DNA of 64,000 nucleotides from Liolophura sinensis. Its lineage: Eukaryota; Mollusca; Polyplacophora; Chitonida; Chitonidae. The notes below the pieces were generated by a model, which did no database searches, was not told the DNA's origin, and saw only the letters and a program-made list of their open reading frames with translations. Where the stretch lies: contig NC_088300.1 in the NCBI RefSeq assembly GCF_032854445.1, positions 54,660,984-54,724,983 on the forward strand. The letters run 5' to 3'. This document shows, piece after piece, positions 604-51,095 of this stretch. The position numbers and the translations under genes are program-made. How positions within the stretch are numbered: position 1 is the first letter of the stretch; each line of letters opens with the position of its first letter.

Positions 604-3600
604 CTGAAAAGCAATCAGATGAATTATCCCCCCTGATTTCGAAATTCTAAAGCATTTGTCAATTATTTGCCACAAACATTTGCCCCAAAGTCGTATTTTT
701 AGGGTGAAATCAGGCTCATAAAAAATCACTTACGGTGACATTTTTTCAATAGGATAACTTACAAACAAATTTAAAAACACTTTCCACATAACAATTCAGC
801 TTTACGTTAATCCATATACAGATATACGAAAGGGCTACTCGTTGTGGTTGCCTCGTTCCACAGTAACAGCTGCAAAACACGATTTTTTCTTCACGTTCTA
901 TACCATCTCTGTTCCTCTTACTGTTAATAGCGTGAATCCTTCCCTTATCAAAGAACATGGAGAACAAAACCTTGACCTCATTAGATATTAAATTAATGTT
1001 GTGCCCTGACATACACAGATGATTCCAATTCCCCTATTTACCCAAAAAGCTGGCTGAGTAACCAGAGGTCGCCAGCAACTCCTCCATGACTCTGTCTTCT
1101 TTTGACCCTGTGTCTAGCTCTTCATCATCAGCCTCCACAAAGTTGTCAAACTGTCAAAAGAGAAACAGTAAGTGACACATACAATTAAATAAATTCACAG
1201 TCAATGTATCATATCCACATGGTAACCAAATAGTCCTAAACCCATTAAATCTTCACCAACACTTTCAGAAAATAAATCACAGCAATGTGTTCTGTCCTTA
1301 TCTGAAAATGTGGCATGGATGAACTAAGCAAAGTTTCAATATATTAAACCTGCATGAAGTAACATCAAATAAGTGGTATGCTTTTTGCCCCTCTTTTGAC
1401 AATCCTTATTTTACAGACTCACATAATTATGAAATGAAAACAAATTATCACTAAAATAGTACAACTTAGTACATGTAGCAAGAGATCATGGGAATGTTAA
1501 ATCATAAAGATGGCTTTGATCGGCTTTTGCAAAGGTAGCCAGTTATCAGTTATAACACTGCCCGACTCACACAGCCTATGGTGTAAAGGGCGTCATACAG
1601 GGTACATGTACAACCATAATGTTTGTTCGTTTGATTTATTTATTTGACTGCTGTTTAAAGACATAAGGGTTTTTCACTGAAACAATGATGATCAGTTTTA
1701 TGGATGGATGTTCCTTTGAAGTAACTTGTGCATATAAAGAGTATTGGCAAAAGATCATTTATATGTTTTGGTAAATGGACAAAGGGAAATAGTTGGCGAG
1801 CCACGGTACTGGACAGGATGACTTACCTTCACCATCTGGTTCCTTTTGGTATCGGTAGACATTGTCCCATGAACTGAGCCTTCAACCAACACCTGAATAC
1901 ACAAAATATTCAGCATGAGTGAGTCTACATGCATTATCATACTGAGCATGAGTGAGTCTAGGTGCATTACCATACTGAACATGAGTGAGTCTACATGCAT
2001 TATCACACTGAGCATGAGCGAGTCTAGGTGCATTACCATACTGAACATGAGTGGGTCTGCATGCATTATCATACTGAGCATGAGTGAGTCTAGGTGCATT
2101 ACCATACTGAACATGAGTGGGTCTACATGCATTATCATACTGAGCATGAGCGAGTCTAGGTGCATTACCATACTGAACATGAGTGGGTCTACATGCATTA
2201 TCATACTGAGCATGAGCGAGTCTAGGTGCATTACCATACTGAACATGAGTGGGTCTACATGCATTATCATACTGAGCATGAGCGAGTCTAGGTGCATTAC
2301 CATACTGAACATGAGTGGGTCTACATGCATTATCATACTGAGCATGAGCGAGTCTAGGTGCATTACCATACTGAACATGAGTGGGTCTACATGCATCATC
2401 ATATTATACATCTTTATTTATCGAAGGTAGCTTGGTCAATTTACAATGAAACTGTTCTTCCCCAAGGCCTTCAAATGGAAAACAATATACAGGAAACATG
2501 TACTTCAGAGTCCAATCAAAAAATACATTAATATGTATATAACAAGATGAAGTTTAAAAAGTGAAGGTACATATATTCATACATACACAAACCAACAACA
2601 CAAACAATAAAGCTGTCCCCTCAACTGTCTCAACCAGCAGGAGAAGTAGGGTAGTGGGAGATGTGAACATGAGAGGGTCTACACATCCAATCATATTAAG
2701 AATGAATATTATTACAATGAGAAAGAGTGGATTCAGGTCCCTGGGTGGAGAAAACCAGGTAACTAGAGCTTTCCCACATGTGATGTAGATTTGCATGACA
2801 TATTAGCGAAAGTAAAGTTATCTTTTATGAATGTTTACCTGTTTAAATGACCATACGTACTTTGTTGACCACTTACTGTCACCAAACCTTCACTAACAAT
2901 AAGAGCAAAGAAACCAGATAGTCACTGGCCAAGGCTGGGATTGAACTTGCATCTTCCATGTCTCATGGTTTGAGTGGCACACATCACTACTGGCCTGCAC
3001 CCTACTGTGTTTGCATTGTATAAATATACATACGCCTACCACTATCAAAAGTTACATGATACACTCATGAGACAAACAATCTTGAAAGAATAAATGATTG
3101 TGGTTAAATGTCACATCAGTAATATTTCAGCCACGTCATGGAAACTAACAAAAGTGAAGTAGAGGTCAGAACACTTTACGATACCAAGCATGACATATTT
3201 CTTTCAAAGCACGACTATTAAACCTGCTAGCATCCAAACAATCCTGTAAATACTATGTACAATGTAGACTGTACTTGCATATCATTACCAAGCAAACAAA
3301 AAAGTACTACCTCTTCCTCTATATCCTCTCCAAGCACAGGCACCGTTTGTCCTACTATCTGTTCATTGTGATAGCCATTTCCTTCACTTATGGGCGTGTC
3401 TGTAGCGTTAGTGAGTTCCTCGGTATTTCTCCTGTACTTTGTTACATCATCTGCATGTCAGAATATCACGGTCAACATTTTATACTTATTTCTCATTACA
3501 TCTTCAGATCTCATAAAAATTAGGTAATGGATATGTATTTATGGAAACAATGAAATGCCTTTTAATACTCTTTTAGAAATGTTGCATTGATTGACATTAT

Positions 3601-17527: not shown

Positions 17528-17637
17528 TCATATAAGAGTGATAGGAATGGTTTCTTCCAGAGGTTCTCTCATGGACACCTTGCGTCTTGCGGTGGACCCT
17601 TGTCCTGACATGATATCATCCAAATTAGAAATAGGTA
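17528..17637 (-). CDS. USH1C: Harmonin last exon, readable in two frames
   Basis: The acceptor is attttcttttcag. Joined directly to exon 22, it completes V and reads TYF then TAA at 17625, giving NYEDEVTYF, which aligns with vertebrate EYDDELTFF. Joined through the 11-nt microexon it is read in another frame: VPISNLDDIMSG, then STARRKVSMREPLEE, then TIPITLI and TGA at 17528. The second frame is open for 36 codons, contains a basic-Ser motif and ends in a class I PDZ-ligand-like sequence. Confidence 0.8.
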
Positions 17638-20600
17638 CTGAAAAGAAAATCAAATCATATTAGCCACCCATTGCATATCTTCTGAATGTCTTCTTCGTTT
17701 TATACATGACATTATTCAATTATAAAATAAACATAATGCAACCATGACAACATCTACACGTTTACATGAAAAAAAAGTGAGACTTGTGAATTGATAATAT
17801 GTACAGGTGCATGAAAGAGACACTAATGCTTGCAATCTCTAAAGGTTTTTTGGTCAATGAACTGAAATACTGTACATGTATAAATTTAAATAACTGCTTG
17901 TCAAATGGTCTTGTTATACATAAAGCCACTACCTGTGATATTCTATCAAATTAAGATGGAAGTTTGACTATGACAAATAAAAGGACGGATGAGATTTCAT
18001 GGATACAGCTAATATTCATACTAATACATGTTCTATCAGTATATGTAATAAAATGTTGCAGATTTCAAAATACAAAGTAAAATGTAAAGTTATGCTTTCC
18101 GCCATGATAATTTAGTCCAATTCATCTGGCATATAAATCTGAATAAACAACAATAAACTAGAACTGTCTTCTATCTGGCTTGAACTGAGTGTGCAAACAA
18201 CATCGATAGTTCACAAACATACTAAAAATATTCTTAACCCTTATAGTGAAAAACATGCGACTTGGTAAAACTTATAACCCCACAAGGAAATAATGAAACA
18301 TGCTCATTTCACAACTGGGTGTCAAAAAGGTGTAAAAAAAAAAAGTAAAACCTAATCTGGTCAAGCTGTTCCTATTGTACAGAGTAGGGCGGACAATTCC
18401 CATTTACTTATCTTCAGTATTAAAGTGTCGGCATGGATACTGTGCACTGAAAATATCTCACCTGACTGTTACATAGACCAGGCCTATCAAGTATAAATAT
18501 ACTCCAGAGATTAGATAATAAATTTTATTTATTTAATTGGTGTTTGATGCTGTACTCAAGAACATTTCACTTATGCGATGGCGACCAGCATTATGGTGGG
18601 AGGGAACCAAGCAGAGCTCGGGGGGGAAACCCACAACCATCCGCATGTTGTTGGCACACCTTCCTACGTACAGCCGGAGAGTAGATAATAAATAAATCAG
18701 ATTTTAATCATGAAAATTAATCCTCTAGACAGGTACACCACAGCCAAAGAAATAGAAGTTTTTTGGGTTTAAGAAAGCTAAACTAAACAGACAACATTTG
18801 TACGACTACATGTATAAAAGGAGTCATCCCTTCAGCCGGAGTTCTTACCCAAGTTGTGACTGAAAATGTACAACAGCAAGTTAAGTCATTCCTGGCCACA
18901 TAATCATAACAATAATAGATAAAACAAACACCCTAATTGAGTCTATAATTCAGAAGCCCCACCTGCCTACACTGCTTTCAACATGTTGCGTAAATGCTCT
19001 AAGAAATTGATTACTGCAAAAACTTCTTTCAAAATTGACGTAGGTATGAGTACTATCTTAATATAATTAGCCTCACTTCTTTTGTTTTGTGCTCCCTGAA
19101 ATCCTGTGGTGTAACAAAGTGTTTTTGCACATGTAAGTATAATATGAGACATTTAACTTAGAGGTAGTCTGAACAATGGCCATGACATACATGGACACAT
19201 TCGTGTGGTTTTGAATGTTTCATTATGTACGTCACTCAGGGATATCTGGGCTTAGTACAATGTCGGATACATGTACTAAGTGAAAACTGAAACAATGAGA
19301 TTTAAAAATGAAGAAAAAGAAAATGTTTTATTTACTTTTTTCAGAAAATTTGCTACCAGTATTATTTAATAAAAGATGAATACTATCACAACTTACACTT
19401 CATCTTCATAGTTCTTCGGCGGAGCTTTAGCAACCACAATCTTGATATAAGACTGCAACATGAAAAAATAAGTAAATACCGTGCAATGCACTTAAAACCC
19501 CTCACGCTTCAGAACAGGTACAAATGCAGCTCAACAGTGGTTGTAATAAGCCACATTCAGGTGGCACAGCACAACACTCGCCACAACAGTGCAGCCGTGG
19601 TAAATTAGCACCGCATTGCAGACAGTGGCCTTTGAAGTTTGAGGTTGCAACTGTTTTTCACAGCCAATCAAACGGTAACATTTCAAACTACAACAATTTA
19701 CTTAACACTTTCAGTTTCTCCATTGTCTTTACTGCGAGTGAGGACATGATTTCCAATGAAGAATTTCAATGAAACAGATATTTAACGTAGTAAGAATGCT
19801 GCCACTGAGTCAAAGCATAGGTTGTCGAGTGAAAATTAGCACCCAGCTCCCGTGCACTGGGGAGATTTCATGACATTTCTGTTAAAAAAAAATGTCATCT
19901 GAAATGCGAAAGTGTAAACTAAAAATGTGTAGACCTTCCTCGAGTGGCACTCAGAAAGTTGTGAAACATCAAGCAGGAGAATACTTTTTTAGGATAACTT
20001 TCAGACTGTCGATGCAGCGTATTATATAAAACTCAACTTAAATAACCCCTATGACCATGAAGAAAAAGGTCAAGGTCACTGAAAATCAGTAGGGTTCTTC
20101 CTCAAGGTGTAAGTGTTGAGTAAGTTTGGTGAACTTGGGCTAAACGGTTCTAGAGATAGCATGTTTACAACCCTAAGATAAAATTTAACTTAAATGACCT
20201 CCATGACCTTGAAGAAAAAGATCAAGGTCACTGAAGAACAAAAGGGTTATTCCTCAAGACAAAGTGTATGTGTGGTGTAAGTTTGGTGAAATTGGGCTAA
20301 ACTTTCTAGAAACAGAGCGTTTACATTTATTTATTTATTTTTTGGACTGGTGTTTTATGCCAAACTCAAGAGTACTTCACTTATACGACGACGGCCAGCA
20401 TTACGGTGGGAGGAAACTGTGCCAGAGCGTTTACAAGCCTTTTACAACATTTCACTTAAATGAGCCAAATAATCTTGGAGAAAAAGGCCAAGGTCGATAA
20501 AATCTATAGGGTCCTTCCTCATGCCAAGGTGTAAATGTGGTGTAAGTTTGGTGAACTTGGGCTGAACTGTTTTAGAGATAGAGCGTCAACAAGGATATGG

Positions 20601-23600
20601 ACAGACGGACAGCTGCTGCCCGCCATGACAATGCCCCTTGACCAATACTGGCTAAGGGTGAAAATTAAAAAATATAATTGAAAATGTGGGTATGATTTAT
20701 TCGTACCTTTGGAAACACAACCGACTCACACAGTGTCAATACGGTAGTGCTAATGGCCTAACGTGTCAAGGGCTTTATCTTGGAACATACTCTCCTTATG
20801 CAGAGTACCGTAGCCGTAAGTTTACTCATCCTCTGCTGAAAAGCTTGCGCATCTCGCATACAGTGACGTAAACATAGCTATTTAACATAATCCTGGCCAA
20901 CCAATGGAAATGACTCTACTATCTCCTGGCGGGAAGTCGTAACAGTAAATGACAGTTGACAAGTTGTTGTTGTTGGTATAAGGTTACCGTTGTCAGCGCC
21001 AGGAAGCACACAAAAACATCTTTATCCTGTATAATTGCTTGCAGAGACTGTCTCTGATATGTGTGCAGCTCCTTTATCCCAAATTTCTGATAAACACGGG
21101 CCTCGGCTTTTCCGCTAATTTCCTAGAATTCGTGTTCTTCAGTCGACATCTTACTTTTGCCAGTTCTTGCTTAATGATGAATATTAAAGAACACACACCT
21201 TCACTTCAACCAATGAAAATTTGTAGTCTTTGGTGAAGGCTTTTTTCTCGTACGGAGCATTCATTGGCTAACATGTGCTATATAGATATTTCTATTTAAT
21301 TATTTCAGCAAAATCTATATTAAGGTGCACTGTAAAAGTGACATTGTTGAGGAATGAGGGTACAAAGCTAGTAAGAATACTGACCCCAGTCCTGCTGGTC
21401 ACTCGGTCCAGTATACTCTGAGCCTCTGTCAGGGTAACGTCTGTCAGTCTGATTCCATCCACCATCATCAACTGGTCCCCCTTATGGACACCTCCTGTAA
21501 ACAGACCACACAAATCGCTAACATCTCCCGTAAACACACCAAGGATAGCTAACACCATCTGTAAACACACCACAAAATAGCTAACATCTCCTGGAAACAC
21601 ACCACAAGAAAACCTCCTGTAAGCACACCACGTGATAGAAAAACCCTCCTGAAAACACACCACAAGATAGCTAACACCTCCTCGAAACACACGACAAGAA
21701 AGCGAACATCTCCAGTGAGCATACCACAAGATAGCTAACACCTCCTGTAAACACAATACAAGATAGCTAACACCTCCTGTAAACACATCAAAAGATAGCT
21801 AACACCTCCTGTAAATACTCCATCAGTTAGCCAACACTTCCTAAATACAAAAATACAGGTAACACCTTCTGAAATCACACGACAAAAAAAGCAAACATCT
21901 CCTGTGAGCTCTCCACACGATATCGAACATCTCCTGTAAACAAAGCAAAAGAGCGCTGACACTACCTGTAAACACACCACAAGATAGCTAATACTTCCTG
22001 TTAATATACCACAAGGTAGCTAACACTTCCTGTAAACAAACCACAAGATAGCTAACACCTCCGGCAAACACACCACAAGATAGATACACCTCCTGTAAAC
22101 ACACTACAAGAAAGTGAACATCACCTGTGAGCACACCACAAGATAGCTAACACTTCCTGTAAAGACACCACAAGATAGCTAACACCTCCTGTAAATACTC
22201 CACAAAATAGCTACCACTTCCTGTAAATACACAAGGCAGCTAACACCTCCTGTAAACACACCACAAGATAGCTAACACCTCCTGTAAACAAACCACAAGA
22301 TCCTGTAAATATTCCACAAGATAGCTAATACTTCCTGTAAATACACAAGACAGCTAACACCTTCTGGAAACACACAACAAGATAGCTAGCATCTCATGTA
22401 ACAAACCACAAGATAGCTAACACCTCCTGTAAACAAACCACAAGATAGCTAACACCTCCTGTAAACAAACCACAATATAGCTAACACCTCCCGTAAATAC
22501 TCCTCAAGATAGCTAATACTTCCTGTAAATACACAAGACAGCTAACCCCTCCTGTAAACAAATCAAAAGATAGCTAACACCTCCTGGAAATAAACCAAAG
22601 AAAGCAAACATCTCCTGTGAGCACACCACACGATATCGTACAACTCCTGTAAGCACACCACACAATAGATAACACCTCCTGTAAACACACTATAAGATAG
22701 CTAACACTTCCTGTAAACACACCACAAGATAGCTAACACTTTCTACAAACACATTAACATGGTTAATGCATTTTTTATTTAATAAATTGTCATACAGACA
22801 ACCACAAAGATGGTCAATCCCCTGACATTATGCTTCAAACTAAATTTAATTAAATTTGGCTCATAGTTCTGGAGATTTCACATGGGCAAAGTTCTGGTGA
22901 ATTCTGGTGAAATCAGCCCATAAATACATCATTAACTATTTTTGCCCAGTCATACCTTGCTTAAAGACAGAACCACCTGGATACACCTCTGAAATAATAA
23001 TCCTGCCTCCCAAAGGTGTCCCCATCCCTCCCTCTATGTCAATATCCAGGGAGCCTTCCTGTGGAAATACACACATATCTGTGTTCACAAAATGTACAAA
23101 AAATGCACAAAAAAGGCATTATTTACATTTGGTTGACATAACAAAATTAGACTAATACTGAAAGTAAATTATACGTGGTAGCAAGGTTATGAAAGAGCCC
23201 GCCTGTAGGAGCCAAATGAATGCAAAACCTCACTTCAGTGTATAAAATATGAAACATTTATCTTACAGGAGAAGAAAACAAAAAATGATGCCAACATCAC
23301 ATGAAAGAGAGTCACAACTTATTTGCAAATATGGTCTTTAATAAATTTGTTTTAATATAAATTTGTTTTAATGCAAATTTGTTGTTTATATATAAACACA
23401 TACATTTAATCTGGGTTATGATAATATTTATGAATATCTTAAAAACATAAATATGACCAAGTTCCAGATTGAACACATTTGTTAGCTGAAATGATCAAAT
23501 TCTAGTGCAAATTAATTTATTAAACATGTGTTACATCCTCATTTATAACATTACTGCACAAAGATTATACATGTATATACCAAAAGGTCTCCCAAATACC

Positions 23601-29600: not shown

Positions 29601-32600
29601 ACAACACAATGACGTACTTGCACGGGATACTTTGAACCATCTGACTAAAAAACCATCTGGACAGGAAAATGTATACAGCAATATACAGTAAGTTCACCAC
29701 TGTTCACACAGATCAGATAATGAAGTGATTTAGTAGAAATAAGAACTAAGATGAAGTTAAACATTAGATCCAGGAGAAAGTTGGATGGGGTAAACTGTCA
29801 CATGCTTATAAATAGTCAGATTGGTTGCATCAAGACTGAAACAAGATAGTATGTAAGCGACAATGTGTCAGCTGATAGAGTACTGAATGACAATTCTTGG
29901 CTGCAGTATGATGTGTGAATGACAAATATATACAGAATGGCAGGTCTATCAGGAACAGTTCCAGATGGCACCTTCTCTTCCAACTCTACAAAAAAAGGTC
30001 TGCATGTCTGATATATACTTATTTGCATTAATTTTCCCTCAACTTTTCTCACCTCTTTTTTCTGCAGCTCTATAGCCAGCTTTTCCTGTTCTCGTTGTTC
30101 TTGTATCTCACGTGATTTGCGCTGTGCCTCTTCCCTCAGACGTTCTTGCATCCTTCTTTGCTCCTCTCTCTCCCGTCGACGCCTCTCTTCGTCTCGCCGT
30201 TCCCTCTCCTCAGCTTCTCTCTTTTCATGCTCTTCTTTCTCTGCAAATATGTCATCTCTCAGTTGAAACAGAGCAAATGAGACCCAGTATAAAAGATAAT
30301 ATTCACCAAAATCCTACTCAGACATTTTCACATAAGAGCAAACTTCCTGAAAGCCTTTTATAACAGCATTGAGATCTTAAAAATAACAAAATGCTTAGTA
30401 CAATAGACATCACATATATCCATAACCAATGGACATGATGGAATGATCAAATACCTGCATGTACGTAAGATGTGGAGTGATCAAATACATCCATAAGCCA
30501 TGGAGATCCAAATCATGACTGCCATGAATTAAGCCTTTTCAGCATCACGACTGCCATAAGCCATGGAGTCATGAAACACCTATATCAGCTAAGGAGTAAT
30601 CAAACACCTAATAAACCCATGAAGTCATCAAATACCTCCATAAGCCAGGTGATCAAATCCTGAGCTTTCATAATGTATGGCATTATCAAATATCTACATA
30701 AGCCAGATGATCACACCCTAAACTTTCATTCGCTGTAAGTTCAAGTCCAGCTCATGCTGGCTTCCTCTCCGGCCTTAAGTGGGAAGGTCTGCCAGTAACC
30801 TGCGGATGGTTGTGGGTTTCCCACGGGCTGTGCCCGGTTTCCACCCACCATAATGCTGGCCACCGTCGTATAAGTGAAATATTCTTGAGTACAAAACACC
30901 AATCAAATAAATAAATAAATAAATAAACTTTCATAACGTATGGTGTCATCAAATATCTACATAAGTCAGATGATCACACCCTAAACTTTCATAACGTATG
31001 GCGTCATCAAATATCTACAAAAGTCAGATGATCATACCCTAAACTGTCACAATGTATGGCGTCATCAAATATCTACGAAAGTCAGATGATCATACCCTAA
31101 ACTATCACAATGTATGGCGTCATCAAATATCTACAAAAGTCAGATGATCATACCCTAAACTGTCACAATGTATGGCGTCATCAAATATCTACAAAAGTCA
31201 GATGATCATACCCTGAGCTTTCATAACGTATGGCGTCATCAAATATCTATATAAGTCAAGTGATCATACCCTAACCTTTCACAACATATGGCCTCATCAA
31301 TTATGTACTTAAGCTAGGTGATCATACCCTGAGCTTTCATAATGTGTGGCATCATCAAATACTCCATATGAAGTCATTAAATAGATCCAGAGGACATGGA
31401 GTCACCAAATACCTATATAAGACATCCAGCCACCAACGACCTGCACATAATAAAACCAGTCATTAAATATCACCATAAGCAGCCATGGAGTATAGTGTGT
31501 TGTGTATCTCACCAGCTTGCTGTCGACGCCTCTGCAAGTCTTCAGCCTCTCTTTGTCTCTTCTCTGCTTTACGAGCAGCTTCCTCCTCTAAAATCTTCCT
31601 GTTTTCAGAGAACATTCCACACATGACTTCAACTCTAGTCAATAGCAAAACATACCTCTCAGTTTCAGAAAAAAGTACTATTACATAGACTATCCTCCTC
31701 ATGTCAAAACAACTCCAGACACCACAAGCCTTCTTATCAAAGCCTTTGGAGTAATGTTTATCTGTCACATCAATGCTGCCACTGAATGCACATCTGTTAC
31801 AGTACCAGAGCAGATCTAGTACATGGCATTCCTCATCAAAATCAAAGCTCAGGGGAGATGATTATACAACCCAGTTTCCACTTTTCAGTATCTGCATCAA
31901 ATATTTTATACAGGATAAAACTGCCATGTCAGCTGTTTTCAAGGTATGTATATGCATAACATATGCAAATAATGTGTACATATACAAATGCATGCATAAA
32001 AGTGTATGTTCACATTAATTTATATATGTATAAAAGTGTATAATTACAATAAAAATGTTAACAATAAGGCAACAATAATAAAGATAAAACAGATAAACTT
32101 TTGATTAATTTTATTGACTAATCGATGTCCAAGATATAATTTTATACATGGTGGATTTTACAAAAATCTCATAATTTTGTTGCTGAATGTCAACATGTGT
32201 CATACATTATGCGTGAACGGAAATAGCCACCAGAAACTCATAAAGTAAAGCAACCAGTCATTGCATCAATTTATACAGTTTATGCAGCTGCTCGATCTCA
32301 AATGTTGCTCAATTGAGGATAATGGATGTTCGTGAAAAATGTAGAACGAAATGTAATGTGATGAAACAATGCAGAACAGAATGTTATGTATGTATCATGA
32401 ATGTACAGAGAACATGCACTGGGGATAAAAGGCACCACAACCAACAAAGTACACATTGTTAACAAAAGATGCAAAAACATGTTCCAGATTACAGGAGGGA
32501 AAGGTGATCAGCTATCAGGCTGAGGAGCAACTTTTAACTTTGATCTTTTAATATTTGTGATGGAGAGCATCTGCACAAGATAATCACTATCTTTTTCTTT

Positions 32601-35600
32601 TATGCATATTACAAGAAATCCAATTACTGAAAACACATAACATTTGTTAAAAAAAAACAAATGAAAAAAGAAGAAGAAATCAAAATGTATTCACAAGGAA
32701 AACAAACTGAATGTATAAAAGCAAATTGTACAAGTAGCATGCTCTTCAACACCAACAAGAGTTAATTGTACCTAAGTTATAGTTTAGTGGAAAAACATAT
32801 AAACACAATGAAAATAAAAAAGCAGAAGACAGAGGGATGCAAAAACAGCTGATGGTTAAGTCAATCTTACCGTAAAATATCACCGCTGCCGGAATGCAAA
32901 CACTCAACATTAAAACAATTCATTTCATATACAGGTGCTTTTGATTTGTGTTAACATTGCAACCTTTGTTCAGATATCAAACACAGGCAATTTAATATCA
33001 TGGACGATGCTGTTAATAAACATGCAATGCTCCAGCCAAGTCTTTCACTTCAAATGCATACAGGAAAGGCTTTCAAAATGCAATACACTTTACTGTTGAC
33101 GAATGAAATGATAAGGCCAGTTTAACTCCTCTCTAATATCATACATCCAAGCTATTCAAAGTGGGAATTCCCTCCAAAAGCAAAGATCTTCAAGTGATGA
33201 CTGACCACAAGAATACTGATAGCAATCTGTGTTTTGTAACACTATTTATCAGTTGTTCTCTGACCTGTGTGCTCCTGGAAAAGACTTGGCTGCTGAATGA
33301 AAGTCTATCTAGACAGGTGTTCACTTACAGTACCTTAAAGGTACATTGTATATCAATTAAGTTATCTGCATACTGGTACGCACACAAAACTAGTACACAG
33401 GAATTACAGGGTGTACGCCTAACTTGAGGAGGAGAATAAAGTATGACTTCAAATAATTAAACCTCTCTTCAGACTAGGCAAAACACTTTGTCACAATTAT
33501 AGATTACTGTACACAATTATAGAAAACTGGTATGTTTCATACTGATTTGTTACCAACACTCAGTACAAGAGAGTACACTAACACACCCCACATACATACA
33601 TACATACATACATACATACATACAGTACTTAAAATAAAAATACTCATGATATCTAATATTTAAATGTACCAACTACTATGTAAACATAATCATCTTTCAA
33701 CAAAAAATACATAGGATACACATGATGACAATTTGGGTGGATTTAGTAAGTCTTTGATATTTGCTGTCTTTGAAGAACACATAACATATTTCTCAATGTA
33801 AAGTAAAATTTGCATACATATATCTTATATAAACAAATTTTTTTGCACCATTTTTGACAAAAGCAACATCACGACAGAAGCTTTAAAGACATACCAGTAC
33901 AAGAGGTTACGTGAGTGACATGAAATTATGAATGAATTGCCTGTTTACGTCTGTTGTCAAGCATCATTAACTCTGAATGTATATATAACTGAGTACCCTA
34001 TTTAAGTGTTCATAAAATTCTTAACATAAATTCTTCCTCTGCTAATGTCAAATATATTAGAAACATAGATAAATGTATTTCTGAGAATAAATCTATAACC
34101 TGTCAGATATGAACACAAGAAAACAAAGAAAAAAAAATTCCAATTAATGATAACACTTCACTATGAAGTATCTATTAGTATTTGGTCAAAGTGCAGTGCA
34201 AAGAAAAGGACAGTTCTCTGAAACGGCAAACAGCTCACATGTCCAAAACATTCTGTATTACACAAGCAACAACAAAACAGAAAATTCCATCATGCAACTT
34301 GTGTCACATTTTGACCAGCCTTTCGGATATCTGAGCTGTTTTCTAATCCAGTACTTTAGGGGGTGGCAGTTGAAGAGGGGAGTTGGTAAAAGGGAGGAGG
34401 TCAGAGTGTCATTTCCATGACAACCTGGGTTTCCCCAGAGCACGCGTCCTCATACCTCTCTTTCTCTTCCTTTTCCTGATTCATAAACTGTCGAAGTTTC
34501 TCCTCCTCAGCTGCTTGCTGAGCAGAATGGGGATGTTCATCCATTTTTAAAAGTTCTCTTCCCTACAACAGTTAGCAGGTAAAATGACTGTACTGCATTT
34601 TAATTCTCATGGCATTGTGTATAGCTGAAGCAATACAGGCAGTAAATAAATGAATAGGAAAAATTTGTTCCTTACATAAATGACAGTTATCGCCTTAGGT
34701 ACATGTACCACATCACAGGTACCTGCGTGAATATACTTGCAAAAACACCATTATCAAAGCTAAGTGTGGTAACTGGAGGAGGCAACTTTGTAAATATTAA
34801 ACTTGTTGTGATGAAGATTATGAAAAGTTTACATCATTGGAAAGATGTATATAAAATTTAATGGAAATAACGCCTTGAGTTTCGTGGACAAAATCAAATC
34901 TGTAGGCTTCTAAGTACCTCAAGGGGGGTAAATTTAATGTAAACATTAATGTAAATGCCAGGGAAATTATGCATGTACAGTCGTCTTCTAATGAAGACTT
35001 TACAGTTATCTTGTGGCACAAGATACGTGCACTTACCGCCCCTTTGTGCAAGGTTATATACAGTTCACTGGATGATTTCAGGGCAACCACAGCCTGGGGA
35101 AAAGAGAAGATTGCTTAATGATACAGCTCATACTATACACAATGGAACCAATACTTGTAAATATCTACTCAAACAAACAAGGTTTAACTGAGCAAACATT
35201 GAAAGAAAACACTAGACCAACTGTACATAGGCATCGACAAAGTATCCCACATGAGGTTGCACATGAGCACCCCCCTTTTACTTTCCTGATGTTGCACAAC
35301 TGAGATATCACAGTTCAAAATCAACTAAATCCAGCACATTGAGAATCAAAAGTGTTACGATGTTATCAGTTTTAAAAAATCACTTTGTGAATTATTTCTA
35401 TAACCCAATGATGCAGCTGTTTCAGCTTACTTCACTGGATATGTACGTGTACTTAGGGTGTGAGTAACGTGATATTGTGTTTCTTGTTACACCAAAATAT
35501 GGTGCATCACATGATCTCATAAGAATTGTTGGTTAATAGTTAATTCAAACAGTTACCAAGAACATCCGAAAAAAAATGTCTGTGGCTGTTCAGTTCTCTT

Positions 35601-47600: not shown

Positions 47601-50079
47601 TGTACAGAACAGGATTTTGACTTTCTGTACATTTTTCATCAAAGAAAACATAATAATATAAACAAGTGAATACACACGCAGCTCATAAAGCATGGAATGA
47701 ACTTCAGTGGAGCCCTCCCATGCCGGGCCTCACCCTGAGTTAACAGGGGATTTATAGCACACAGGTCCCCACAGTTAAAGTAACTCTTGGCCTTACACAG
47801 CTCATCACAGAAAACAAAGAAGAGCTGGAGAACAGGTAACATTGTTTAAATTGTCAGTATGAGGATTAGGCAGAATGTCAAACAGATTAACTGAAGCATA
47901 TTTTCTCCTGTTATTTGAAGATGAATGTTCAATACCCCTATCAGAATGTTTACTTCCGGCTGGCTTCTCCCGAATAAATCCAGGGGTTCAAGCATTCAGG
48001 GTATCGAAGCATCTGCCAAAAGCAGTACCTTGCCAGAATAAATCGGTTGTAATAGACTATATTTTGAGGCATGATTTCGTATAATTTTCTAGTGCAGAGA
48101 ACTTTCTAAACATGTAAAATGGAGATAAAGTACCTTAGAAATAAAACAAATAGAACCACTGTTCTAAATATAATACCTCAGTAAACCTCGGTCGCCCCCA
48201 ATGAAAACTTATCTAACCCACCTAATCTTATCTAACAGGAAGAAAGTCTGTTATATATTTACAGAGCTCACAAAGTGTTATCTTTATTGTGACCTTATAG
48301 AGGGAATAGTAAACTAAAGCATATTGCGTGTAAATGTATGTATGTTGTATTGCTGTCCTCCTGTATGACATTTATGAAAGCTGCAAAAAGAAATAGGTAA
48401 CTACATATTTCTAATTTATGCTAATCTATAAGAGATGAGGTGTCACAAAATTGTGACTGATGTAGATGTATTTCAGTCAATTACAACAACCACACAATGC
48501 AATGTATGCTCAGGGGTTTAACATTGTAAAATTTTTCACTCATATGACGACGAGGGCGTCGCTAAGTGTGTGTGTACTAATACCGTGTCTTCTTGTGGCA
48601 GGGCGAGTCCATGCCACCAAAGTGCTGCCACCACTAAAGTGTCATGACGAAGACACCAGACATGATACCTCACCAAGTCACATCATACTAACACCTGACC
48701 AACACCTGACCAACCAGTCATACTTCTTTGCTCTAACCGCTTAGTGCAAAGTGCCAAGCAAGGCAGCAACAAGTACTATCCTTAAAGTCTCTGGTATGAC
48801 CCCACCCGGACCACACAATTCATGTACATGTCTTGCTGATGAGAAGGAAGCAAGAAATAGGAACTATTTGAATCTGTCAAAGGTTGTTCAGGTTTCAGAT
48901 GTTCAGATCCTGCCAAATGTCAATGTCATAACGCTTGAATGAAAGACAGAATGACAAAAATTTAAAGGAAAAGATCTCTGAAAATGAAAGTAGGCATCAC
49001 TAAACAGACCACTTAAAACTATGCATAAATACACTTTCATTTCTTTTTTGTGATTTTTATTAAAAGAGTTAAAGGCGCTCAAATGTCTGAATTCTAAGAT
49101 GGGCTTTATGGACCTTACTATTAGAGGTTAGGAACTCTGATATCACAGGAAGGTTATCCAACTTTAATCATGACACTGAATGGTGGAATAATTCTTTTTA
49201 CCCATGAGTAAAAGATTATTGAAATGATGTTCCCCAAAATTCCTTCCTTCTAGTGAACATCAGGAAAAAAAGGTGACGTGACGTCAGAGTTCCAAGATAC
49301 CATGAGTATGGCTCATAAAGCCCACCATAGTTTTCAAATATTTTTCAACGTCTTTCAACACTCTTAAAAAATAAATTACAGCATTTTTGCGCGTAGTTTT
49401 CAGTTATCTATATGATGAACCTTACCTTTACCTCCTTTTACTTCAATTTACTAGCATTAAAGAAAGAATGTCATAAATCTGATCTTCCAACAGGCCAACT
49501 GACCGAGACAGAGGTACTTATACAGTCTTTTTAGGATTACATATTGGTTCTTAATAATGCTTCTTGTGTGGTGTTTGGCATTATTAGTTACACAAACATG
49601 TGATCTGAAATTCATCACATACTGACTTTGGAAATAACAAAGCTCTTCTTTAAGATTAACCACGTAATTAAGCAACCAAAAGATTTTGTTTCCACAGATA
49701 CTTTTTGTCAGTTGACATAAATTCCAATCCACAGGTCTTTCTCACACAAAGATGATAAAGGCTATTTTTTCTTTTCTCTAGTGAGTGATAGCATGAAATG
49801 CCAGACTTGAATTCACACAACTGCCATAACAGCAAGCCTCAAGTCACTCGAATTCTTCAGCTTTATAGGCTGGGCTAATGGCAAGCAGCCAAACCAAATG
49901 CTTTAATGAGCTGATATTGTAGTAAAAACAGTTTGTAGTAAAATTCTTAAAAACAAAAAATTTGAGGCTTCTGTGGAACACCCCAAAAGTTTTGGCCTGG
50001 AAATTGATGCAGCCATATAGTGTATCAGAAAGTTTAATCTTACCTTATTATAGAAATTCCTTGCAATTCTTCTTTCCAT
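17528..50079 (-). CDS. USH1C: Harmonin (USH1C-like) triple-PDZ scaffold protein, complete
   Basis: Twenty-two constitutive coding exons plus a dual-frame last exon join on the minus strand with unbroken phase. The product is 688 aa without the 11-nt microexon and 724 aa with it. Order: N-terminal harmonin domain, residues 1 to about 80 (INEPVRLELFDAIRPLIPLK); PDZ1 about 83-167 (binding loop SLGFAV, then GDEVVRVNG); PDZ2 about 212-294 (GLGCSI, then GDQLIDVNG); a highly charged Arg/Glu/Gln coiled coil about 302-480; an acidic linker; PDZ3 about 588-677 (SLDIDI, then GDQLMMVDG). The order matches vertebrate harmonin, whose shorter isoforms are about 550 aa; the coiled coil and linker are longer here. 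In vertebrates harmonin links cadherin-23, protocadherins and Sans to actin in stereocilia and microvilli. The same role is inferred. The coding start follows MDRKVAREF-like homology (MERRIARNFYNK). Introns carry SINEs and minisatellites. Confidence 0.95.
18520..18678 (-). mobile_element. SINE, head-truncated
   Basis: Minus-oriented body and tail of the tRNA-derived SINE (gccagcattatggtggga, cgggggggaaacccac), located in the last harmonin introns. Confidence 0.75.
18849..18859 (-). CDS. USH1C: Harmonin candidate 11-nt microexon
   Basis: TCACAACTTGG is flanked on the minus strand by gttgtacattttcag and by gtaaga. Eleven is 2 mod 3. Inclusion therefore takes the phase-2 end of exon 22 to phase 1 and opens the second frame of the last exon (…DEVHNLVPISN…). 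A TTGCTG sequence lies just upstream of the acceptor. The call rests on splice sites and frame logic, with no transcript evidence. Confidence 0.6.
19397..19452 (-). CDS. USH1C: Harmonin exon 22 (end of PDZ3)
   Basis: The acceptor is gttgcag and the donor GAAGT|gtaagt in phase 2. It encodes SYIKIVVAKAPPKNYEDE, matching vertebrate DLVVAVCPPKEYDDE. If unspliced it would read into TAA directly. Confidence 0.93.
20030..20680 (+). repeat. Dispersed repeat in three tandem units of about 150 bp
   Basis: Three diverged units each contain 'gaagaaaaaggtcaaggtca', 'ttcctca', 'gtaagtttggtgaac' and 'gggctaaac…tagagatag'. The array ends in 'ggacagacggacagctgctgcccgccatgacaatgcc'-type sequence, split here by landmark only. 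It resembles a dispersed element common in molluscs and is interrupted by a SINE. Confidence 0.7.
20324..20421 (-). mobile_element. SINE fragment with a 12-bp target-site duplication
   Basis: A minus-oriented tail and partial body are flanked on both sides by agagcgtttaca. This marks a retrotransposition event into the host repeat unit. Confidence 0.8.
21385..21494 (-). CDS. USH1C: Harmonin exon 21 (PDZ3)
   Basis: The acceptor is tctgtttacag and the donor ACTGGG|gtcagt. It encodes GVHKGDQLMMVDGIRLTD and the PDZ3 helix TEAQSILDRV. The acceptor and the first seven exon bases (GAGGTGT) are themselves a unit of the adjoining 32-bp minisatellite. Confidence 0.93.
21487..22757. repeat. 32-bp minisatellite seeded at the harmonin exon 21 acceptor
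   Basis: Roughly 39 units with consensus 'taacacctcctgtaaacaca' plus 'ccacaagatagc' (32 bp). Units vary in length and sequence. On the minus strand each unit reads tgtttacag|gaggtgttagc and so carries a copy of the exon 21 splice acceptor. The array starts seven bases inside exon 21. Confidence 0.93.
22956..23058 (-). CDS. USH1C: Harmonin exon 20 (PDZ3)
   Basis: The acceptor is tttccacag and the donor CAAG|gtatga in phase 1. It encodes EGSLDIDIEGGMGTPLGG and IIISEVYPGGSVFKQ, the binding groove and second strand of PDZ3. Confidence 0.95.
23700..24640. repeat. Degenerate repeat of about 200 bp with a perfect-like 85-bp tandem pair
   Basis: The 85-bp unit at 24272-24356 is repeated at 24357-24441 with very few changes (gtcactatgctttacacgaa start). 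More diverged copies around 'ctaacatttacctta' extend from about 23750 to 24620. The array lies in the intron between exons 20 and 19 and hosts one SINE. Confidence 0.75.
23876..24121 (-). mobile_element. tRNA-derived SINE, nearly full length
   Basis: Minus orientation. The tRNA-like head 'ggggcctccgtggcttagtt' is at the right end, followed by the body and a TTTATTTATT-complement tail at the left. The body has small deletions. Confidence 0.85.
24741..24794 (-). CDS. USH1C: Harmonin exon 19
   Basis: An 18-codon phase-0 exon (FNPMEIDGRQINLVKIKR) with acceptor ttgtccacag and donor CGG|gtatgt. It starts PDZ3 and aligns with vertebrate FTPEQIMGKDVRLLRIKK. Confidence 0.94.
24858..25085. mobile_element. 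Composite SINE: minus copy joined to an inverted plus tail
   Basis: A minus-oriented SINE runs 24858-25043 up to 'gaactggacttga'. It continues directly into gagtacggtgtaaaacgcca with an (AAAT)n tail, which is the 3' end of the same family in plus orientation. Confidence 0.75.
25193..25265 (-). CDS. USH1C: Harmonin exon 18
   Basis: The acceptor is tttttgtacag and the donor TTT|gtaagt. It encodes PLFIEEASPQDDSSGDLNF plus DPKKF, part of the acidic linker before PDZ3. Confidence 0.9.
25664..25764 (-). CDS. USH1C: Harmonin exon 17
   Basis: The acceptor is gtgtggtgctgtag and the donor CACAG|gtacat. It encodes PWVPDIRVTTPSNLKSSSSN through SGPAFDH, a linker that is weakly conserved in the family. 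Phase fits both neighbours exactly. Confidence 0.85.
26140..26280 (+). mobile_element. SINE, head-truncated
   Basis: Plus-oriented body (tgtgagaaggtcttccagca, caccataatgcgggctgcc) and a short tail, in harmonin intron 16. Confidence 0.75.
26281..28724. other. Harmonin intron 16, remainder
   Basis: No exon or repeat array could be supported. It is AT-rich sequence with chance open frames only. Confidence 0.45.
28725..28856 (-). CDS. USH1C: Harmonin exon 16
   Basis: The acceptor is cgtcatgctcag and the donor GAG|gtagtt. Its 44 codons (TGTQAPVRIWRPVDDVYMPS, then an acidic stretch EESYFHQCEEFSPE) begin the linker after the coiled coil. Confidence 0.9.
29263..29418 (-). CDS. USH1C: Harmonin exon 15 (coiled coil)
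   Basis: The acceptor is cttttttctag and the donor AGG|gtattt. Its 52 codons are rich in Arg, Lys, Glu and Gln (ERQEKKRRRMEKEKLHLQK) and continue the coiled coil. Confidence 0.92.
30053..30240 (-). CDS. USH1C: Harmonin exon 14 (coiled coil)
   Basis: The acceptor is catatttgcag and the donor GAG|gtgaga. It encodes about 62 almost uninterrupted charged residues (KEEHEKREAEERERRDEE and similar), the core of the coiled coil. Confidence 0.93.
30430..31370. repeat. 58-bp minisatellite, degenerate at its edges
   Basis: Units begin catcaaatatctac and contain 'aagtcagatgatcataccct' and 'cacaatgtatggcgt'. Central units at about 30940-31260 are nearly identical and outer ones decay. It lies within harmonin intron 13 and does not touch an acceptor. 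Confidence 0.9.
30730..30927 (+). mobile_element. SINE inserted in the 58-bp array
   Basis: A plus-oriented copy truncated at the B-box (gtaagttcaagtcc) with a long AAAT tail. The flanks repeat aaactttcat on both sides, a target-site duplication within one array unit. Confidence 0.85.
31513..31598 (-). CDS. USH1C: Harmonin exon 13 (coiled coil)
   Basis: The acceptor is tgaaaacag and the donor GCTG|gtgaga. It encodes KILEEEAARKAEKRQREAED followed by LQRRRQQA. Confidence 0.92.
31599..34455. other. Harmonin intron 12
   Basis: I see no exon. It holds a (catacata)n microsatellite at about 33593-33625 and otherwise AT-rich sequence. Confidence 0.5.
34456..34562 (-). CDS. USH1C: Harmonin exon 12 (coiled-coil start)
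   Basis: The acceptor is tgttgtag and the donor GAGAG|gtatga. It encodes GRELLKMDEHPHSAQQAAEE and EKLRQFMNQEKEEKE, the junction from PDZ2 to the coiled coil (vertebrate GRELFMTDRE). Confidence 0.93.
35037..35093 (-). CDS. USH1C: Harmonin exon 11 (end of PDZ2)
   Basis: The acceptor is tttccccag and the donor GCG|gtaagt. It encodes AVVALKSSSELYITLHKGA, matching vertebrate AVNVLKSSRSLTISIVAAA. Confidence 0.95.
35932..36076 (-). CDS. USH1C: Harmonin exon 10 (PDZ2)
   Basis: The acceptor is tgatgttgacag and the donor GAG|gtaatc. It encodes ISSGPVDFPGVFIKSVKPGS and GVGDQLIDVNGTSF, the central strands of PDZ2. Confidence 0.96.
36294..36385 (-). CDS. USH1C: Harmonin exon 9 (PDZ2 start)
   Basis: It encodes QVTEKAGHRRSPVRYSKLYV and NLRGVNGLGC. 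The acceptor is a NAGNAG (ggaacagcag), so the first Gln may be optional. The donor is TGCAG|gtaact. It carries the PDZ2 carboxylate-binding loop. Confidence 0.93.
36515..36690 (-). mobile_element. Strongly diverged SINE
   Basis: The minus-oriented tail, tttcacttggagatcagttt and 'gttactgacaaactttccca' preserve the order of SINE landmarks at low identity. Confidence 0.5.
36967..37036 (-). CDS. USH1C: Harmonin exon 8
   Basis: The acceptor is ctctcactgcag and the donor TGG|gtaaga. It encodes YVTDTVSWKYVEKPDKSNHS, the linker between PDZ1 and PDZ2 (vertebrate EPLTWQYVDQF). Confidence 0.92.
37378..37402 (-). CDS. USH1C: Harmonin exon 7, 25 nt
   Basis: The acceptor is tttcttttgtag and the donor AGAGA|gtaagt. 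It encodes VGMLPVR (vertebrate IGLIPVK). It enters in phase 1 and leaves in phase 2, so it is required for frame despite its microexon size. Confidence 0.9.
38069..38177 (-). CDS. USH1C: Harmonin exon 6 (PDZ1)
   Basis: The acceptor is gttctaatag and the donor AGAA|gtaaga. It encodes VGDEVVRVNGFTIDQAIHEE and VLNLIKAKPEIVLKVR, matching vertebrate VGDEIVRINGYSI. Confidence 0.96.
38568..38641 (-). CDS. USH1C: Harmonin exon 5 (PDZ1)
   Basis: The acceptor is tctcccttag and the donor AGG|gtaagt. It encodes FEHGVGIYVSEVDPDSQAYH and YGLR (vertebrate FGCGLFISHL). Confidence 0.95.
38717..39000 (+). repeat. Dispersed repeat family 2, plus copy
   Basis: It contains aacaatttttcagtcatatg, 'tcttcttgtagcagggtgag', 'gacaccatacatgacacctc' and 'taaagtctttggtgtgaccg'. 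It shares this order with the copies near 9.4, 48.6 and 57.8 kb. Confidence 0.7.
39528..39655 (-). CDS. USH1C: Harmonin exon 4 (end of N-domain, start of PDZ1)
   Basis: The acceptor is ttgttttcag and the donor GGAG|gtaagt. It encodes PLIPLKHQLDYDRLAPNVPE, then RLRIIRLQRWNNESLGFAVR, including the PDZ1 binding loop. It is close to vertebrate PLIPLKHQVEYDQL. Confidence 0.96.
39656..41894. other. Harmonin intron 3
   Basis: A plus SINE tail fragment (40203-40266) and a minus SINE fragment (41546-41602) are present. There are also three 17-bp tandem copies of 'taaacacatattgc' type at about 41183-41226. No exon is visible. Confidence 0.5.
41895..41978 (-). CDS. USH1C: Harmonin exon 3 (N-terminal domain)
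   Basis: The acceptor is gtgtatgacag and the donor ATCAG|gtaaat. It encodes SLDLGRLLDQLKEIINEPVR then LELFDAI, matching vertebrate LKLVINEPSRLPLFDAI. Confidence 0.96.
42917..42990 (-). mobile_element. SINE tail fragment
   Basis: Minus-oriented tail plus 'ttgagtatggcacaaaacac'-type sequence, breaking off after the body start. Harmonin intron 2. Confidence 0.65.
43667..43734 (-). CDS. USH1C: Harmonin exon 2 (N-terminal domain)
   Basis: The acceptor is cttcatttcag and the donor CAACA|gtgagt. It encodes AKQLIPEDGEREQMFNILRA plus YQ (vertebrate [20 protein letters not shown]). It starts in phase 0, compatible with either first exon. Confidence 0.95.
43882..44036 (+). mobile_element. Diverged SINE with internal deletion
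   Basis: A degenerate tRNA-like head (ggggcctctgtagctgag) is followed by gagttcaagttcagctcatg and a long AAAT tail. Much of the central body is missing. Confidence 0.7.
44152..44239. repeat. 22-bp tandem repeat, four copies
   Basis: Four essentially identical units tatggccactacatggtaac plus tg, in the harmonin intron upstream of exon 2. Confidence 0.95.
45516..45765. mobile_element. SINE pair in tail-to-tail inversion
   Basis: A plus copy (45516-45728, B-box gagttcaagtccagttcatg, long tail) runs into tttgattggagttttacgcc, the tail end of a minus copy at 45730-45765. Confidence 0.75.
46109..46153 (-). CDS. USH1C: Harmonin candidate alternative first exon
   Basis: An ATG opens MALEHDSMTEVFEEM and ends at GAGATG|gtaagg in phase 0, exactly as needed to join exon 2 (AKQLIPED). 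It would replace MERRIARNFYNK from the upstream first exon. The hydrophobic spacing (V, F, M) could still continue the first helix. There is no transcript evidence. Confidence 0.45.
47734..47824 (-). other. Orphan exon-like segment in harmonin intron 1
   Basis: On the minus strand, ttctccag is followed by an open frame (LFFVFCDELCKAKSYFNCGD, LCAINPLLTQ) and donor CAGG|gtgagg. Its 91 nt would break the harmonin frame if included before exon 2. It could belong to a 5'UTR variant or be chance. I do not recognise the peptide. Confidence 0.25.
48520..48830 (+). repeat. Dispersed repeat family 2, plus copy
   Basis: The most complete copy: 'tcactcatatgacgacgagg', 'tcttcttgtggcagggcgag', 'ccaccaaagtgctgcc', 'gacaccagacatgatacc' and 'taaagtctctggtatgaccc'. 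Confidence 0.75.
50044..50079 (-). CDS. USH1C: Harmonin first coding exon
   Basis: ATG opens MERRIARNFYNK and the donor is AAG|gtaaga in phase 0. It matches the start of vertebrate harmonin (MDRKVAREFRHK). The exon extends as 5'UTR to an acceptor at about 50126, where a minisatellite begins. Confidence 0.92.
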
Positions 50080-50125: not shown

Positions 50126-51095
50126 CTGAAACAGTCATGAGTAATACTTCATCAAACAACCAGGTTTGTGCTGAAATCACATTGAGTAATCCTACATCAG
50201 ACAAGCAGGTTTGTGCTGAAAATAATGAGTAATACTTCACCTAACAACCAGGTATGTGCTGAAACAGTCATGAGTAATACTTCAGACAAGCAGGTTTGTG
50301 CTGAATATCAAATATTCTACATTAGACAAATAGCTTTGTGCTGAGACAGTCATGTGTAATCCTACATAAAACAACCAGGTATGTGCTAAATGTCATAAAT
50401 ATTCTACATTAGACAAGCAGCTTTGTGCTGAGACAGTCATGTGAAATCCTACATAAAACAACCAGGTATGTGCTGAAACAGTCATGAGTAATACTTCAGA
50501 CAAGCAGTTTTGTGCTGAATGTCATAAATATTCTACATTAGACAAGCAGCTTTGTGCTGAGACAGTTATGTGTAATCCTACATAAAACAACCAGGTATGT
50601 GCTGAAACATTCATGAGTAATACTTCAGACAAGCAGTTTTGTGCTGAATGTCATAAATATTCTACATTAGACAAGCAGCTTTGTGCTGAGACAGTCATGT
50701 GTAATCCTACATAAAACAACCAGGTATGTGCTGAAACATTCATGAGTAATACTTCAGACAAGCAGTTTTGTGCTGAATGTCATAAATATTCTACATTAGA
50801 CAAGCAGCTTTGTGCTGAGACAGTCATGTGTAATCCTACATAAAACAACCAGGTATGTGCTGAAACATTCATGAGTAATACTTCAGACAAGCAGTTTTGT
50901 GCTGAATGTCATAAATATTCTACATTAGACAAGCAGCTTTGTGCTGAGACAGTCATGTGTAATCCTACATTAAACAACCAGGTATGTGCTGAAACAATTA
51001 TAGGTAGTACATGTACTTCATCAAACAACCAGCTTAGAGCTAAAACAATCATGGGTACATGTAATCTTACATAAAAAAAACAGCTAGGTTTGCAG
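50126..51095. repeat. Minisatellite with 129-bp higher-order units of three ~43-bp subunits
   Basis: Subunits begin caggtatgtgctgaaacatt, cagttttgtgctgaatgtca and cagctttgtgctgagacagt; the trimer repeats about four times near 50466-51000. On the minus strand every subunit ends in a tcagcac or tttcagcac box. The array begins at the acceptor (gtttcag|cag) of the first harmonin coding exon. Confidence 0.92.

Follow-up and report, generated by a model that had tools for sequence, protein, structure and literature searches.

The harmonin gene

The window, by which we mean the whole 64,000-nt stretch of Liolophura sinensis DNA analysed here, carries a harmonin (USH1C) gene on its minus strand (Table 1). 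Harmonin is a protein that anchors the bristles of sensory cells. To locate exons, we used a human harmonin query in tblastn searches; the anchors run collinearly from 50079 to 19396 and preserve the domain order of an N-terminal harmonin domain (E 6e-5 and 2e-9), PDZ1 (E 4e-8), PDZ2 (E 3e-14), and PDZ3 (E 4e-4 and 5e-4). Each of the other anchors is weak on its own (E 0.2 to 12). The anchor for the start codon, at 50079, has an E-value of 1.5, and the coiled coil between PDZ2 and PDZ3 may be encoded by a pair of exons, one at 34523 and the other near 31600, whose matches are weak (E 9 to 12). In total, 13 exons and the last exon are anchored, some of them weakly; we use "exon 22", the number given in an earlier note on this DNA, for the exon preceding the last intron.

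Independent evidence for the identity of the gene comes from its 3' end. The PDZ3 region with its short tail matches harmonin chains in the PDB (1v6b, 5xbf, 5mv8) with E-values of 4.1e-24 to 1.5e-22, while the best non-harmonin chain for the same region reaches 1.5e-11. As the earlier note had proposed, then, PDZ3 and its C-terminal extension place this gene with harmonin above other PDZ proteins; judged by these alignments, it is the USH1C/harmonin orthologue.

Table 1 Features of the harmonin gene discussed in the text, in coordinates of the window.
Feature	Position	Strand	Evidence
Harmonin (USH1C) gene, putative start codon to long-frame stop	17528-50079	minus	tblastn anchors; PDB match for PDZ3
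Exon, PDZ3 first half	22956-23058	minus	
Exon, PDZ3 second half	21385-21494	minus	
Exon 22, preceding the last intron; SYIKIVVAKAPPKNYEDE + 2 nt, phase 2	19397-19452	minus	
TTAAC, possible branch point, -25 of the microexon acceptor	18880-18884	minus	
TTGCTG (UGC motif), -20 to -15 of the microexon acceptor	18874-18879	minus	
Candidate 11-nt microexon TCACAACTTGG; acceptor ...cattttcag, donor gtaaga	18849-18859	minus	splice-site scoring
Last exon, short frame: T-ACC-TAT-TTC-TAA (tail ...VTYF-stop)	17625-17637	minus	
Last exon, long frame following the microexon: VPISNLDDIMSGQGSTARRKVSMREPLEETIPITLI-stop	17528-17637	minus	

Two tandem arrays lie close to these exons. A 32-bp minisatellite of 39.6 copies occupies 21488-22753 of the minus strand, immediately upstream of the second PDZ3 exon. 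Its units resemble the acceptor of that exon (tttacag/GAGGTGT), with the true site at the end of the array, and they therefore present many decoy 3' splice sites ahead of the real one. At about 50285-50908, roughly 200 nt upstream of the putative start codon, there are 129-bp tandem units with an open 42-aa frame (HSAQNCLSEVLLM...).

Direct splicing yields the conserved harmonin-a tail

Exon 22 ends in phase 2 with ...GAAGATGAAGT/gtaagt, and the last exon begins at 17637 following the acceptor ttttcttttcag/TACC. Joined directly, the two encode PPKNYEDEVTYF, with the short-frame stop at 17625-17627. This sequence aligns end to end, last residue included, with PPKEYDDELTFF of vertebrate harmonin-a (PDB 1v6b, E 4.1e-24); among PDB sequences, the short tail matches the harmonin-a C-terminus of both mouse and human. 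The sequence reading and the PDB alignment together bear out the earlier proposal that exon 22 ends in phase 2 and that the direct join gives DEVTYF-stop, like the vertebrate harmonin-a end. Since PDZ3 and the short tail match harmonin to the last residue, the direct splice represents the conserved form. Compared with phi-D-D-x-Psi-x-FF-COOH, the end YEDEVTYF-COOH differs conservatively, with E for the first D and Y for the first F, and the remainder fits. When we searched the animal's own 609-Mb assembly with the short tail and with the long tail described below, only the harmonin gene itself matched, with no paralogue or second haplotype.

A candidate 11-nt microexon in the last intron

Between exon 22 and the last exon, the earlier note had pointed to an 11-nt segment with its own acceptor and gtaaga donor. 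This segment is present in the sequence, flanked by ...ttgctgttgtacattttcag on its 5' side and gtaagaac on its 3' side. We scored its splice sites with weight matrices built from 13 donors and 11 acceptors of the harmonin gene plus generic consensus strings. The acceptor reaches 9.2 bits and the donor 8.7 bits, for a pair score of 17.9, and both fall in the range of the real sites of the gene. With leave-one-out scoring, the acceptor exceeds 9 of the 11 real acceptors and the donor 8 of the 13 real donors; once the real sites are left in the set that trains the matrices, the candidate exceeds only 3 and 4 of them, respectively.

In a scan for site pairs enclosing 3 to 27 nt, the segment at 18849-18859 is the top pair within the 1,759-nt last intron, and an equally good pair appears in 19 of 500 dinucleotide-shuffled introns (3.8%). 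Control sequence contains one pair as good in 30 kb of antisense and two in 62 kb beyond the gene. At this rate (3 in 92 kb), about 0.06 chance pairs are expected in the last intron and about one over the 30 kb of introns in the gene, so that the splice sites alone are no proof of an exon. A raw count of 8 equal pairs in the masked sense introns had implied a higher chance rate; we rejected that estimate because, on the unmasked sense strand of the gene (cut-off 17.85), the 13 pairs comprise 3 true exon edges, 9 pairs in the 32-bp minisatellite, and the microexon.

The expectation of about one equal pair over the gene's introns argues for an alternative that we regard as unlikely though a real possibility: that the segment is a chance decoy, a cryptic pair of sites 11 nt apart that is never spliced or spliced only as noise, in which case the short tail would be the only one made and the long frame would be an ordinary open 3' UTR. 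Against this, the pair sits in the sole intron where a shift of this size (11 mod 3 = 2) opens a coding-like frame, and it is in that intron that the chance expectation is so low.

Among the best 12 short pairs in the last intron, the next best enclose 22 nt and 4 nt (both mod 3 = 1; scores 16.4 and 15.2) and lead into the third frame, where a stop is reached after 22 codons (...RCP); the other pairs with mod 3 = 2 score at most 7.8, compared with 17.9 for the microexon.

We also considered a repeat origin for the microexon or the long tail, which is unsupported, with no second copy of either in the animal's own genome. The 261 nt around the microexon (18700-18960) gave one genome match in a search that skips very common words. 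The 26-nt microexon junction, allowing up to 3 mismatches, had no match anywhere in this genome, a result that is uninformative about splicing because retrocopies are rare.

Inclusion would open a longer frame in the last exon

The frame arithmetic follows directly from the sequence. With the 11 nt included, the tail reads DEVHNLV, followed by 35 codons (PISNLDDIMSGQGSTARRKVSMREPLEETIPITLI-stop) that end in TIPITLI, giving 39 new residues. Translation thus agrees with the earlier claim that, upon inclusion, the last exon is read for 36 codons in another frame that ends TIPITLI-stop, and the stop is now placed more precisely, at 17528-17530. The accompanying claim that the last exon is read in two frames holds in that both frames can be read, but the overlap was overstated: the short form terminates after just 10 coding nt of the last exon, leaving a tiny doubly coded stretch. 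The candidate has the sequence features of a frameshifting penultimate exon, with a non-triplet length of 11 nt, both stops in the last exon, and at least 20 new residues. Because both stops lie in the last exon, nonsense-mediated decay is not expected, following the reasoning of PMC7392665.

To ask how coding-like the long frame is, we used codon log-odds trained on 63 of 74 loci from the animal's own genome. Three loci were excluded beforehand (L001, L002, and harmonin's own L022), and eight were dropped for in-frame stops (L017, L033, L043, L047, L050, L069, L070, and L074). The noncoding comparison set may contain unanchored harmonin exons and repeats, either of which makes the test harder. 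Within the exon, the long frame reaches +0.09 per codon; its flanks score -0.30 upstream of the acceptor and -0.10 past the stop, and the other two frames of the last exon score -0.09 and -0.12. A score this high is found in 9.2% of 6527 noncoding stop-free windows and at 94 of 821 noncoding ORF ends (11.5%), and the fraction of windows reaching it is 3.8% with training on PDZ loci and 9.9% with kinase-only training. The long frame is low relative to harmonin exons, with 2 of 12 exon stretches scoring below it. It is moderately coding-like, above about 91% of noncoding windows.

Both C-termini fit the pattern of class-I PDZ ligands, [ST]x[VILF], as had been suggested. Such ends occur in 67 of the 1195 ORFs in the window that span 30 aa or more (5.6%) and at 49 of the 821 noncoding ORF ends. 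The long tail had no match in the PDB up to an E-value of 10 and none in Pfam. These statistics are consistent with one another but post hoc, and taken singly they are modest: the site pair stands at about 4-6% for its intron, the coding score at 9-11%, and the PDZ end at 6%.

For the decoy explanation, these numbers cut both ways. Stop-free frames of this length are common, as the count of ORFs in the window attests, and the coding score is reached by an appreciable share of noncoding windows and ORF ends; the score and a class-I end, however, occur together at only 1 of the 821 noncoding ORF ends (2 when the training set is PDZ loci alone, 3 when it is kinases alone). A different explanation, very improbable in our view, is that the long tail is real yet reached by an alternative donor of exon 22, an alternative acceptor of the last exon, or some other cassette, with the 11-mer playing no part as the switch. 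The long frame is moderately coding-like irrespective of the microexon, and the scan covered site pairs enclosing 3 to 27 nt. What weighs against such a route is that, within the scan, the next-best pairs enter the third frame and the other pairs of the right phase are far weaker than the microexon.

A harmonin tail switch via the 11-nt candidate exon is therefore plausible on the sequence evidence, and we consider it probable that the last harmonin intron contains, at 18849-18859, an alternative microexon of non-triplet length whose inclusion would replace the Myosin VII-binding tail with a longer C-terminus.

The two tails are predicted to differ in coupling to Myosin VII

In vertebrates, as described in PMC5493754, the harmonin-a C-terminus (phi-D-D-x-Psi-x-FF-COOH) inserts into a groove of MF2, the second MyTH4-FERM unit, in both Myo7a and Myo7b, and deletion of the tail abolishes this binding. 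The carboxylate touches K1918, Q1914, and W1895 (Myo7b numbering), and D546 and D547 of harmonin-a contact R1921 and S2082. The same tail contains a putative class-I ligand that mediates both the binding of PDZ3c to the PDZ1 region and the self-association of harmonin (PMC5493754).

We found a myosin VII MF2 piece in the animal's own genome that matches Myo7a MF2 (5mv9) with an E-value of 2.8e-82. Residues were mapped through the printed alignment, with the numbering of PMC5493754 anchored on the Tyr2026/Phe1923 difference reported there. In Myo7b numbering, W1895, Q1914, K1918, and R1921 are retained, and position 1923 carries the Tyr found in Myo7a. At the socket positions checked, this alignment indicates that the animal's Myo7 retains the tail-contacting socket.

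Given the tail-groove contacts in vertebrates and the conserved socket here, we infer that the short tail acts as a plug for the Myosin VII FERM domain, a point absent from the earlier note, and that inclusion would unplug it. When the microexon is skipped, YEDEVTYF-COOH would occupy the FERM groove, and it could also serve as a class-I ligand for harmonin's own PDZ1. Inclusion would instead lead into the 36-codon frame, so that YEDEV would be buried in the chain and the free end displaced by 36 residues, removing the free aromatic carboxyl terminus held by Myosin VII. The long form would end in another class-I PDZ ligand (ITLI). It would thus no longer bind Myo7 MF2 directly, yet would retain a PDZ ligand with which to self-associate or to engage other partners.

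Regulation of the microexon

The UGC motif TTGCTG had been read as a cue for SRRM proteins. The motif does stand beside the acceptor, with TGC at -19 and the previous AG at -34, in a context that lacks a long pyrimidine tract (no long UCUC). It is a weak cue, however: TGC occurs in the 25 nt ending at 24.8% of the 1975 AGs in the gene (TGCTG at 1.6%), and the sites of the microexon are not weak, unlike those in fly. Among the real acceptors of the gene, 1 of 11 has TGC within 25 nt. A genome-wide count of the motif TTTGCTG...AG proved too loose for use. The weakness of the UGC motif as evidence is a further point in favor of the decoy explanation.

The animal's own genome encodes an eMIC domain (PF15230), scoring 29.4 bits against a cut-off of 27 in a 99-residue stretch that covers profile positions 4-55 of 67. 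The eMIC exon alone gives 20 bits, and 27.5 bits with its in-frame neighbours; one of 14 control genomes also scored, below the cut-off. This margin is thin because the sequence is SR-rich.

According to PMC8797185, eMIC exons combine a UGC close to the 3' splice site with long AG exclusion zones, strong branch points, and long UCUC tracts; in fly, their 3' splice sites are very weak and their 5' splice sites weak. The candidate resembles eMIC/SRRM neural microexons in its very short length, in the UGC near its acceptor, and in the presence of an eMIC domain in the genome; it differs in having no long UCUC tract and in having sites that are not weak, whereas the fly ones are. The same paper describes microexon conservation as falling off rapidly outside vertebrates (PMC8797185), and therefore conservation of 18849-18859 cannot be assumed. 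SRRM-type control of the microexon is weakly hinted at by these features, and the suggestion of sensory-neuron-type regulation finds no support in anything in our analysis.

Comparison with known systems

In vertebrates, splicing already produces a comparable exchange of harmonin tails (PMC5493754, PMC3520954), which the earlier note had missed. Of the 28 exons of human USH1C, exon 27 is used alternatively (PMC3520954), and residue 871 falls within it (PMC3885616). The harmonin b3 form has 899 residues, and harmonin-b carries a divergent 47-aa extension and binds neither Myo7 MF2 nor NPDZ1.PDZ2 (PMC5493754). Exon 27 was undetected in pig b transcripts (PMC8988205), a point against the proposed reading. 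From these residue numbers, vertebrate exon 27 appears to write the 47-aa extension of harmonin-b. The likeness to our candidate is that, in the same gene, an alternative exon before the last goes with the replacement of the EYDDELTFF tail by a longer one; here, in contrast, the candidate exon is 11 nt long, the new tail would come from another frame of the last exon, and a class-I PDZ end would be kept. Exon 27 presumably lies in the same phase and at the same codon as the candidate microexon.

Frameshifting penultimate exons and non-triplet microexons are already known kinds. Like the exons described by Preussner et al (2020; PMC7392665), which turn 3' UTR into coding sequence, the harmonin candidate is non-triplet, would move the stop within the last exon, and would escape nonsense-mediated decay. 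In those exons it is skipping that extends the frame, and the extensions are rich in proline and PxxP; here inclusion would extend the frame into a tail that ends as a PDZ ligand, and the exon is of microexon size. In C. elegans, inclusion of a 28-nt non-triplet microexon of tnt-3 requires PRP-40, and forcing either form alters muscle activity (PMC13247117). This microexon likewise chooses between two downstream frames. By the dual-coding threshold of 60 nt given in the same paper, tnt-3 passes, and harmonin, with its 10 doubly read coding nt, would fall in the class of alternative C-terminal length. Among open-licence papers, a literature search on harmonin with microexon or mollusc turned up no such isoform in titles and abstract openings.

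A more far-reaching reading, which we put forward tentatively and hold to be doubtful, is that the 11 nt form a conserved, cell-type-regulated, one-step clutch between harmonin and Myosin VII that arose independently of vertebrate exon 27 at an equivalent gene position. Unlike harmonin-b, the long form would keep a PDZ end and so release the motor while preserving self-assembly. If the tail switch is true, the group to which this animal belongs and vertebrates would both choose by tail splicing on the same PDZ3, so that in two animal groups some harmonin molecules would bind Myosin VII directly and others would not. The 11 nt would then be a minimal natural tool for probing direct Myo7-harmonin coupling in microvilli and sensory bristles, with a clear binding prediction, and would add a further clean case of a functional frame shift by a non-triplet microexon.

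Tandem repeats with open frames

Several further repeats are present in the window and elsewhere in the genome. In the myosin VII locus (L075; C12:637200-644700), long tandem arrays lie between the exons, with translations beginning LLFFPPTRHIESTGSLLGQSQ... and VGLLNSCITMPYLNSSHQ.... A locus with a MyTH4 match (L042, on C6 near 9.19 Mb of the same genome) contains, at about 2422-3168, tandemly repeated units that are each roughly 118 bp long and carry an open frame (VSIIRTDADGFALCEVMGSIGTMRSDAEGFALYEIMGSIGEYHKD). Within the window, a tandem repeat at 1758-2417 is open in two minus-strand frames, of 173 and 220 codons (YDNACRPTHVQYGNAPRLAHAQ...).
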